This document shows, in pieces, positions 23,336-24,221 of a stretch of 64,000 bases of DNA. Every line of letters starts with the position of its first letter. Position 1 is the first letter of the stretch. The notes beneath the pieces are model-generated. The model did not search any database. It was not told the DNA's origin and worked only from the letters and a program-made list of their open reading frames with translations. A program made the position numbers and the translations under genes. Origin of the DNA: Candidatus Sulfidibacterium hydrothermale (GTDB lineage Bacteria; Bacteroidota; Bacteroidia; Bacteroidales; F082); assembly GCF_020149915.1 (NCBI RefSeq), contig NZ_CP083760.1, forward strand, positions 1 through 64,000, given 5' to 3'.

Positions 23336-23373
23336 AAAAGGGACAGCCTGTAACTTAACAAGTTGTCCCTTTT
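23336..23373 (-). terminator. Terminator of tRNA-Pro (bidirectional)
   Basis: AAAAGGGACA and TGTCCCTTTT form a 10-bp stem. On the minus strand it follows the tRNA 3' end by a few bases and continues into a T-rich run. It may also end the convergent beta-CASP gene. Confidence 0.8.
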
Positions 23374-23378
23374 GGTTG

Positions 23379-23453
23379 TCGGGGTGAGAGGATTCGAACC
23401 TCCGGCCTCTTCGTCCCGAACGAAGCGCGCTAACCGGGCTGCGCCACACCCCG
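23379..23453 (-). tRNA. tRNA-Pro(CGG)
   Basis: Read on the minus strand: acceptor stem CGGGGTG/CACCCCG, D-arm GCGC-loop-GCGC, anticodon stem CTTCG/CGAAG with loop TTCGGGA (anticodon CGG), T-arm GGAGG-TTCGAAT-CCTCT, and discriminator A. CCA is not encoded. All arms pair, so this is the functional copy. Two fragments of the same tRNA lie just upstream (in transcription order) within 550 bases. Confidence 0.95.
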
Positions 23454-23492
23454 AAATCTTATTGAATGGAAAAAAACAAAGCCGAACGAAGC

Positions 23493-23607
23493 GCGCTAAT
23501 CCCGAAAAACAGAAAATCTTTGATTTTCGTCGTTTTTCGTGGATCCTCGATTTTGTAACGAAACGTACGTTTCGGCAAAATCGGGACCGGGCTGCGCCAC
23601 ACCCCGA
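23493..23607 (-). repeat. Copy A of a 115-nt tRNA-Pro-derived repeat
   Basis: This copy holds the tRNA-Pro 5' end through GCGC of the D-arm, split in the D-loop by 87 extra bases at 23500-23586. The insert starts TCCCGA and ends TCGGGA and folds into two hairpins: CGATTTTGT/GCAAAATCG enclosing CGAAAC/GTTTCG, and a longer AAAAAC-AGAAAATC-type stem. Copy A continues further into the tRNA, through the anticodon (GCTTCGTTCGG), before diverging. It encodes the C-terminal end of the GIY-YIG gene. It differs from copy B at four of 115 positions. Confidence 0.85.
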
Positions 23608-23855
23608 GTTTGTTTATCTATCCAGTCGAAAACCGCTTTTCGCTTTTTCAGACTTTTTAGATGTTTTTCCAATTTTACAGCCTCAGACCGACTATTACAA
23701 GGTTTTGCATATAACAGCTTCCACGGCCTTTTGGCTGAAGTCGATCGATTTCTACCTGTATTATGTCGTTTCAGACGTTTTTCAACATCCTGTGTTTGAC
23801 CAATGTACAGGCTTCCATCGACTTCCGATATCAATATATACGTAAAGAACTGCAC
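23496..23855 (-). CDS. GIY-YIG endonuclease, tail read from a tRNA-Pro fragment
   Basis: A small GIY-YIG nuclease. No ATG precedes the domain in a sensible place, so I choose the GTG at 23855, giving 119 residues. TYILI (4-9) and SLYIGQT (15-21) are the GIY and YIG strands. R28 and H31 follow, and E63 in SRSEAVKLEKHLK is the expected metal-binding Glu. The domain ends near residue 80. The remaining 39 residues, starting GVAQPGPDF, are translated from copy A of the tRNA-derived repeat, and the stop TAG lies in its TTAGCGC. The longer frame to 24011 only reads copy B and is unlikely to be translated. Tails of this GVAQPG kind are familiar on Bacteroidota GIY-YIG genes that abut tRNAs. Confidence 0.8.
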   Translation of the reverse strand: MQFFTYILISEVDGSLYIGQTQDVEKRLKRHNTGRNRSTSAKRPWKLLYAKPCNSRSEAVKLEKHLKSLKKRKAVFDWIDKQTRGVAQPGPDFAETYVSLQNRGSTKNDENQRFSVFRD

Positions 23856-23883
23856 TTTTTTCTTTTTTTGTTCCGAGTGATGG

Positions 23884-23998
23884 GCGCTAATCCCGAAAAA
23901 CAGAAAATCTTCGATTTTCGTTGTTTTTCGTGGATCCTCGATTTTGTAACGAAACATACGTTTCGACAAAATCGGGACCGGGCTGCGCCACACCCCGA
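23884..23998 (-). repeat. Copy B of the 115-nt tRNA-Pro-derived repeat
   Basis: Same design as copy A: 28 bases of tRNA-Pro (5' end to D-arm) split at the D-loop by an 87-base double-hairpin insert at 23891-23977. It diverges from the tRNA directly after GCGC, so it is shorter on the tRNA side than copy A. It lies upstream of the GIY-YIG gene, so the nuclease is bracketed by copies in the same orientation. Confidence 0.85.
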
Positions 23999-24029
23999 AA
24001 ACAGGCGGCAAAATTAATAAACATTCTGA

Positions 24030-24085
24030 TTTCTCAAAAGTTTTTTTTACCGGATTTTATTCTGCCTGATATTGTTTATCCGGAA
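24030..24085. repeat. Left 56-bp direct repeat flanking the RAYT element
   Basis: This stretch is identical at 55 of 56 positions to 24868-24923. The right copy is the genuine 3' end of dprA (its last 29 bases and the stop) plus 27 downstream bases. The left copy is therefore a stray duplicate of the dprA end, as expected from a long target duplication around 24086-24867. Confidence 0.85.
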
Positions 24086-24221
24086 ATCCATCTTCTCATC
24101 CGCGTTTGCAACGCGGATGGTTTTCTACACAACGTTATTGCAACACAAAACAAACCATGTTTGCATTACAAATGCACAGTTAAACATGTCCGCGTTACAA
24201 GCGCGGACAATATATATTCTT

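Follow-up and report, generated by a model that had tools for sequence, protein, structure and literature searches.

What is the array beside a tRNA-Pro gene of Candidatus Sulfidibacterium hydrothermale, in which two copies of the 5' part of the tRNA, each broken at the same point by the same hairpin-forming insert, enclose a small nuclease gene, and does the hairpin belong to the nuclease? The window (the whole stretch of 64,000 nt that was analysed) is part of a 3.27 Mb single-contig genome. Read along the minus strand, a distal broken copy is followed by the GIY-YIG gene, a proximal broken copy and the intact tRNA-Pro, with these features:

23336–23373, minus strand: inverted repeat past tRNA-Pro, terminator-like (inverted-repeat search; terminator role presumed)
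23378–23453, minus strand: intact tRNA-Pro(CGG) (ARAGORN; Rfam tRNA, 64.5 bits)
23482–23607, minus strand: proximal tRNA-Pro 5' remnant (tRNA nt 1–38) with the double hairpin inside (repeat alignment)
23496–23855, minus strand: small gene for a putative GIY-YIG nuclease, 119 aa with GTG chosen by us as start codon, its tail taken from the proximal remnant (ORF, Pfam; AlphaFold of the first 90 residues)
23500–23586, minus strand: double-hairpin module copy a, 87 nt, in the D-loop, ends ambiguous by 1 nt (alignment, folding, pattern search)
23873–23998, minus strand: distal tRNA-Pro 5' remnant with the double hairpin inside (repeat alignment)
23891–23977, minus strand: double-hairpin module copy b, 87 nt (alignment, folding, pattern search)
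24000–24050, minus strand: native tRNA-Pro promoter region (TATTAATTTTG), from relatives' flanks compared by eye

The two remnants are direct repeats of 126 nt each with 94% identity. Their eight mismatches comprise four inside the hairpin insert and four in the final 11 nt, so that the preliminary description, two 115-nt copies with four differences, holds. Each copy consists of tRNA-Pro nt 1–38 plus the 87-nt D-loop insert; nt 1–21 match the intact tRNA at 100% in both, as do nt 21–38 in the proximal copy, and the last 18 nt of the distal copy reach just 78%. The insert has TCCCGA/TCGGGA termini and, as single-stranded DNA, is predicted to form two hairpins joined at GGATCC, with TCC..GGA ends on each (folding z −4.6 and −6.7; none of 200 shuffles equals either copy). 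Alignment and folding confirm the termini, the two hairpins and the shared D-loop position that had been described, and ARAGORN together with a PF01541 match (E 2.4e-18) confirms a GIY-YIG gene between the copies and next to an intact tRNA-Pro. The copies are 265 nt apart, and the ORF between them ends at 23496, within the proximal one. The gene does take its tail from one copy, as first reported, but the 39 codons given for it do not stand: a count on the translation yields 36 plus the stop. Upstream of the distal remnant, TATTAATTTTG contains a putative promoter motif.

Five residues of the nuclease (Y17, G19, R27, N32 and E63), presumably the catalytic residues of the GIY-YIG domain, are invariant across 38 sequences; a domain with catalytic-type residues, as sought in a Seg-like enzyme, is present. 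The 171-aa ORF has solely GIY-YIG-type Pfam matches, at residues 55–124, with no separate DNA-binding region among them. TIGR01453 matches residues 5–38 alone, under its cut-off, and the rest of the tail of the ORF is encoded by the tRNA half and the hairpin. AlphaFold models the first 90 residues with a mean pLDDT of 91. The nearest solved relatives by sequence are UPF0213 (2.3e-12) and SLX1 (3.3e-6), with I-TevI at 0.0066, and a structure search of the model returns UPF0213 (1.7e-4) and then Slx1 (3.5e-3), with I-TevI at E 0.5. Sequence and predicted structure thus place the domain nearest UPF0213/SLX1 and farther from I-TevI. A phage origin of the unit was considered and dropped, with three weak hits among 50,697 phage records; a PHROGs search with three of the GIY-YIG proteins returned no match.

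Both occupied and empty tRNA-Pro target sites, as sought for a Seg-like homing endonuclease and as the preliminary description had proposed to look for, are present among 12 genomes of the genus, own included. The broken half is seen in three of the 12 (the window, G008 and G010), and eight others have a bare tRNA-Pro(CGG) locus (L047–L054); in G007 the best match, merely 78%, is tRNA-Pro(TGG). In G008 and G010 the D-loop is split at this very position by the same insert, so the arrangement is not peculiar to this assembly. In G010 the half and module are present and the GIY-YIG gene is absent. G008 has half, GIY-YIG gene and half at one contig end, and on another contig a GIY-YIG gene that runs directly into an intact tRNA. 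The array is patchy within the genus, with the relatives mostly represented by draft assemblies, in which repeats collapse. Six bare loci have readable flanks, L052 and L053 reaching contig edges, and in five of these (L047, L048, L050, L051 and L054) a similar promoter stands, by eye, immediately before the intact tRNA; the flank of L049 is unlike the others. In the window, G008 and G010, the same promoter stands before the broken half (again by eye). The array is thus bounded by the tRNA promoter on one side and the intact tRNA on the other, and its state varies inside one genus. Beside the unit, the intact tRNA has 100% identity with its counterpart in the array-free relative G001 and is therefore not protected by its own sequence.

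The combination of GIY-YIG gene, tRNA and tRNA fragments is general, recurring at other tRNAs and in other phyla. A survey with four GIY-YIG proteins covered the best 80 of 280 loci, which are top-scoring and not random; 62 of these have a tRNA within 600 nt and/or tRNA fragments, and in all 62 except L166 gene and nearest tRNA share a strand. Outside the 62 fall, among others, the contig-cut G008 locus (L108) and L140, whose tRNA-like hit of 24.6 bits is below the cut-off of 29. Hosts of the 80 loci, by title and taxonomy, include Bacteroidota, Ignavibacteriota, Rhodothermota, Planctomycetota, Myxococcota, Zixibacteria, Acidobacteriota, Omnitrophota, Calditrichota and Patescibacteria. Fragments, detectable solely where a locus holds an intact tRNA, come in pieces with an intervening stretch at 38 of the 80 loci (105 redundant rows), and these stretches are mostly palindromic, some (e.g. 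L170) weakly. By a stricter count, a palindrome abuts a fragment end at 42 of 50 fragment-bearing loci and in 83 of 131 fragments, compared with 275 of 6550 random intervals (4.2%) from the same 50 loci; six of the eight loci missed by this count have palindromes with longer loops or shorter arms (by eye). Fragment zones, 10.1 kb altogether, have 25 TCC..GGA palindromes, intact tRNA (7.3 kb) has none, and the sequence elsewhere (550 kb) has 29. Some short palindromes replace a tRNA arm instead of inserting, many remnants retain the whole T-arm, and several have 27–31 nt of unbroken identity with the tRNA. These short palindromes (TCCCGA, TCCGCC and CCTGCC types) may be something other than the double-hairpin module. 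A single cut site at the anticodon was dropped as an explanation, the break points being scattered: 7 of 18 upstream halves end 0–5 nt past the anticodon start, and the starts of 25 downstream halves spread from D-arm to T-arm.

The sequence TCCCGA..TCGGGA stands right before a T-arm in 72 of 395 Bacteroidota genomes, own included, and the reversed pattern in 2. Thirty such loci were read, five of which (L203, L206, L207, L208 and L210) are intact tRNA-Asp and were dropped; a GIY-YIG gene is present at 15 of the remaining 25, several of them contig-cut, so gene and broken half are linked, not inseparable. In a Nomurabacteria locus (L187, 4001–4764), a GIY-YIG gene lies about 110 nt upstream of a tmRNA with palindromes between, possibly the same parasitism at tmRNA. 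The GIY-YIG tree, built on 80 columns with most forks weak, tracks tRNA isotype beyond shuffles, with many switches: 36 isotype changes are needed (lowest of 300 shuffles, 43), or 34 when tRNA-Arg rows are removed (as few in 2 of 300 shuffles). The tree follows host phylum, too, at 18 changes against a shuffle minimum of 19, and part of the isotype signal may therefore be plain descent. Rows lacking a tRNA cluster as well (7 changes; shuffle minimum 12).

The own genome has 17 GIY-YIG hits. After a tRNA-Met at 2733526 come 356-nt units in tandem, made up of GIY-YIG gene and tRNA-Met 3' part (6.7 copies; seven units, the last truncated), with the tRNA fragments interrupted by TCCGCCGGCTGGCGGA. 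A tRNA-Val at 1780682 is followed by a GIY-YIG gene, a pseudo-tRNA-Val with TCCCGACTTCCCAAGTCGGGA in place of the anticodon arm, and a truncated GIY-YIG gene. ARAGORN names this hairpin-bearing pseudo-tRNA (L027, 1786–1859) tRNA-Gly(CCC), which makes it a source of false tRNA annotation. Hairpin-broken partial copies with no GIY-YIG hit nearby occur at tRNA-Pro(GGG), tRNA-Ser(GCT), a tRNA-Met 111-nt array and tRNA-Asn; a fragment by tRNA-Val(CAC) has no clear palindrome. In the 111-nt array (L091, 1069500–1070384), the tRNA-Met is followed by seven units of tRNA 3' part and terminator-like sequence, no GIY-YIG hit is found, and the hairpin lies at a tRNA position matching that in the other tRNA-Met array. 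Downstream of an intact 5S rRNA (L225, 2776462), a partial 5S copy is broken by TCCGCCAGCCGGCGGA and a second, nested palindrome (by eye), a pattern like that of the tRNA halves but at an rRNA, with no GIY-YIG hit near; in a similarity search the remnant itself does not reach E 0.1. Two more GIY-YIG genes lie at 84000–91000 (L029), with no tRNA in the 7 kb read, one of them amid repeated stems tipped with TCCGCC palindromes. Three 23S rRNA hairpin tips (L224) read TCCGCC(N4)GGCGGA and may be natural stems; this sequence occurs 29 times in the own genome, once in each of two relatives and in none of nine others (drafts). The proposal that TCCGCC..GGCGGA at hairpin tips of functional RNAs (23S rRNA, SAM and cobalamin riboswitches) marks insertions was dropped: the SAM riboswitch match is an ordinary variable stem in relatives, so no insertion is claimed for such tips.

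The double hairpin does not belong to the nuclease; it is a member of a dispersed family. In the order, 15 of 393 genomes, the own one among them, match a pattern for its first half (control, none), at up to 10 places in one genome, and the module occurs in the own genome twice, both times in the array. Among the 28 copies outside the own genome, 15 lie in tRNA halves adjoining an intact tRNA, 13 have no tRNA within about 800 nt (some on short contigs), and six have a GIY-YIG gene within 900 nt. The preliminary claim of a palindromic module that is the unit's own is not supported by these counts, and wide occurrence of the insert away from GIY-YIG genes or tRNAs, which had been named in advance as evidence against that claim, is largely what is seen. 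Also against it are short palindromes of other families, which in the own genome interrupt remnants of tRNA and 5S where no GIY-YIG gene is found nearby. The copies are dispersed at non-homologous sites, as sought for a DHE-like element. Within tRNA halves the module lies in the D-loop in ten cases (after nt 15, 18, 20 or 22; in L292 between 18 and 22) and in the T-loop in five (after nt 52, 53 or 54), in eight tRNA isotypes. The flanking tRNA positions are consecutive in 12 of the 15 halves, the exceptions being L268 and L270, aligned on one side, and L292, with a small gap. In the nine D-loop halves where the outer piece was aligned, all nine pieces stop at nt 25–34. The Y1 proteins of the own genome gave no hit in the 28 loci of relatives, and no transposase was found with the module there. 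The module looks like an independent inserter meeting dispensable halves.

Alignment of the module began from 30 loci and excluded L277 and L286 (second arm not found), L283 and L295 (identical rows) and L278 and L289 (an extra stretch, 114 nt in total), which left 24 distinct modules, with window copy b outside the set; the G008 and G010 copies bring the alignment to 26 sequences. Module ends were set via the neighbouring arm, not the covarying pair, and the end of L270 is doubtful. All 24 distinct modules fold into two hairpins. The outer stem of hairpin 1, prescribed by the search pattern, is constant in the 26 sequences. In hairpin 2, the second pair is C-G in 12, G-C in 10, U-A in 3 and A-U in 1, four Watson-Crick types across 26 of 26, with both sides changed in 14; none of 500 shuffles reaches this count or the covariation score, and structures slid along the module show no such both-side changes. 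Just one of 15 module pairs covaries in this way, counts of varying pairs and of pair types lie within the shuffle range, and the inner stems, which differ in length, are judged by folding alone. The four copies from the genus show both-side changes at 4 of 37 pairs, a count that 5 of 500 shuffles also attain. The fold that the preliminary description had wished to see checked by covariance is thus borne out: the two joined hairpins are kept by compensatory change, again as sought for a DHE-like element, at one pair of 15.

The reading that we favour, with a probability of about 0.55, is that tRNA-parasitic nuclease units leave dead tRNA halves and that a separate mobile double hairpin inserts into them. 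A unit encoding a free-standing small GIY-YIG nuclease would have entered the tRNA-Pro(CGG) gene near the anticodon, presumably by cutting and homing, and would have carried its own tRNA 5' part, so that an intact tRNA was rebuilt downstream. The native promoter and nt 1–38 would have been left upstream as a dead half, and the unit would then be transcribed from the tRNA's native promoter. The native flank stays with the displaced half, and one half of the rebuilt tRNA comes from the unit, which fits insertion with a carried replacement half. Empty sites in the genus and recurrence elsewhere likewise support the earlier proposal of a GIY-YIG element that is associated with, and probably targets, tRNA and rebuilds its 5' part. 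Recombination between repeated halves would multiply or delete units. The double hairpin would have inserted into the D-loop of the dead half with target bases neither duplicated nor deleted, probably once and ahead of the unit duplication, so that both halves carry it at the same place. It may strike the D- and T-loops of many tRNAs and persist in dispensable halves alone.

Breakage of the halves next to GIY-YIG genes is so regular (42 of 50 loci), however, that it would be explained equally well by a functional link and by an independent inserter. It is possible, if doubtful, that nuclease, half and hairpin form one cooperative selfish system over many phyla, in which an SLX1-like nuclease would cut hairpin or tRNA-loop DNA, a carried half would serve to rebuild the tRNA, and the element would be protected, or its loss made harmful, by the hairpin of the displaced half; double-hairpin elements would then be an independent bacterial mobile class specialised on tRNA D- and T-loops. 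That the nuclease unit includes the hairpin as a functional part, which destroys the cleavage site in the displaced half, the sole copy joining the tRNA to its native flank, and so averts self-cutting, is unlikely. The excess of abutting palindromes over random intervals accords with such a role, and so does the SegB motif RAWTSGAAC given in excerpts of PMC13096335, which we read as the reverse complement of the T-loop and which T-loop inserts would break; yet the module and short palindromes also occur in halves with no GIY-YIG gene found nearby, the T-arm is whole in many remnants, and the intact tRNA is the same as in array-free G001. We consider it improbable that the hairpin is instead a substrate, extruded and cut by an SLX1-like structure-specific nuclease to start recombination that amplifies or moves the unit. 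The affinity of the domain to UPF0213 and SLX1, with I-TevI weaker, and the preservation of hairpin pairing despite sequence change would suit this, but a GIY-YIG gene accompanies only 6 of 28 module copies and the long tandem array of 111-nt tRNA-Met units is gene-less, although the 17 genomic GIY-YIG hits could act in trans.

More improbable still is simple survivorship, in which insert-free halves would be quickly lost by recombination with the intact tRNA and hairpin-broken ones would remain visible. Any insert shortens the perfect repeat, and the arrays and the G010 state suggest expansion and collapse of units, but the frequently palindromic nature of the interruptions and the 13 of 28 modules located elsewhere would go unexplained, and several remnants have kept 27–31 nt of unbroken identity. 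Plain tandem duplication and decay of the tRNA locus, with nothing mobile, is very hard to credit: tandem duplication plainly occurs, as the tRNA-Met array illustrates, and against its sufficiency stand the recurrence at unrelated tRNAs and phyla, the insertion with no target base lost or duplicated in 12 of 15 halves, and the dispersed module family with its covarying pair. No less remote, judged from sequence, is a functional RNA role for the hairpin-bearing half (processing signal, decoy or regulator) in the tRNA transcript; compensatory changes that keep the pairing and a position between tRNA promoter and tRNA might point to one, but the module also lies at places where no tRNA was found, and its presence within the genus is patchy.

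By analogy, the nearest mechanism would be that of SegB, a phage GIY-YIG homing enzyme for which excerpts of PMC13096335 provide tested precedent: SegB cuts inside tRNA genes at the motif RAWTSGAAC, the tRNA-nuclease unit is amplified in tandem by recombination, and the authors think that this recombination involves the 5' region of the tRNA on one side and the 3' end of the nuclease gene on the other. As with SegB and the free-standing GIY-YIG enzymes of T-even phages in those excerpts, the nuclease gene here adjoins tRNA genes and tandem tRNA-nuclease units occur. Unlike SegB, the present nucleases have a small UPF0213/SLX1-like domain, reside in bacterial genomes of several phyla, and are accompanied by displaced tRNA halves broken by hairpins. 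The module, in turn, resembles by description the double-hairpin elements of fungal mitochondrial DNA (Allomyces; Paquin, Laforest and Lang 2000), which are small, dispersed, made of two joined hairpins and thought to be mobile according to excerpts of PMC10085805 and PMC4478555; unlike these it is bacterial, and over half of the copies read lie in tRNA D- or T-loops. Integrase islands have one complete and one partial tRNA copy at their insertion ends, attL/attR (PMC9897764, in excerpt), and complete and partial copies are likewise found here, with the differences that both 5' and 3' halves occur and that a hairpin lies within the partial copy. No integrase gene is present between the copies, where the 265 nt are too short for one and are filled by the GIY-YIG ORF, which was scanned by Pfam.

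A RAYT gene (NF047646; 24234–24791, plus strand) lies about 240 nt from the array, with palindromes of its own, TCCGCG..CGCGGA, at 24097, 24187 and 24838. The short palindromes and the closeness of this gene recall REP/RAYT systems, from which the array differs in that the RAYT palindromes are unlike the tRNA inserts (the palindromes listed being those with G+C of at least half); the hairpin as a product of the neighbouring RAYT was dropped on this ground. The module does not recur as a RAYT-flanking palindrome in its own genome, where it is confined to the array, and the window RAYT has no hit in the 80 GIY-YIG loci. Literature searches, judged by titles and abstract openings and with subscription papers mostly outside their range, list no paper on tRNA halves broken by hairpins next to GIY-YIG genes.

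Of all places where mobile DNA lands, tRNA genes are the best known, and integrases are at work in the cases familiar to us. At this locus, tRNA genes would be exploited both by a minimal nuclease gene and by a double hairpin that encodes no protein, and the intact tRNA stays alongside. Broken tRNA halves beside intact tRNAs in many bacteria may represent an undescribed way of living off tRNA genes, and the double hairpin looks mobile from the comparison of its copies. If so, it would be a bacterial parallel to the fungal mitochondrial double-hairpin elements, the arrangement would account for a class of pseudo-tRNAs that gene finders can miscall, and protein-free hairpin mobility would become testable, with defined insertion points.
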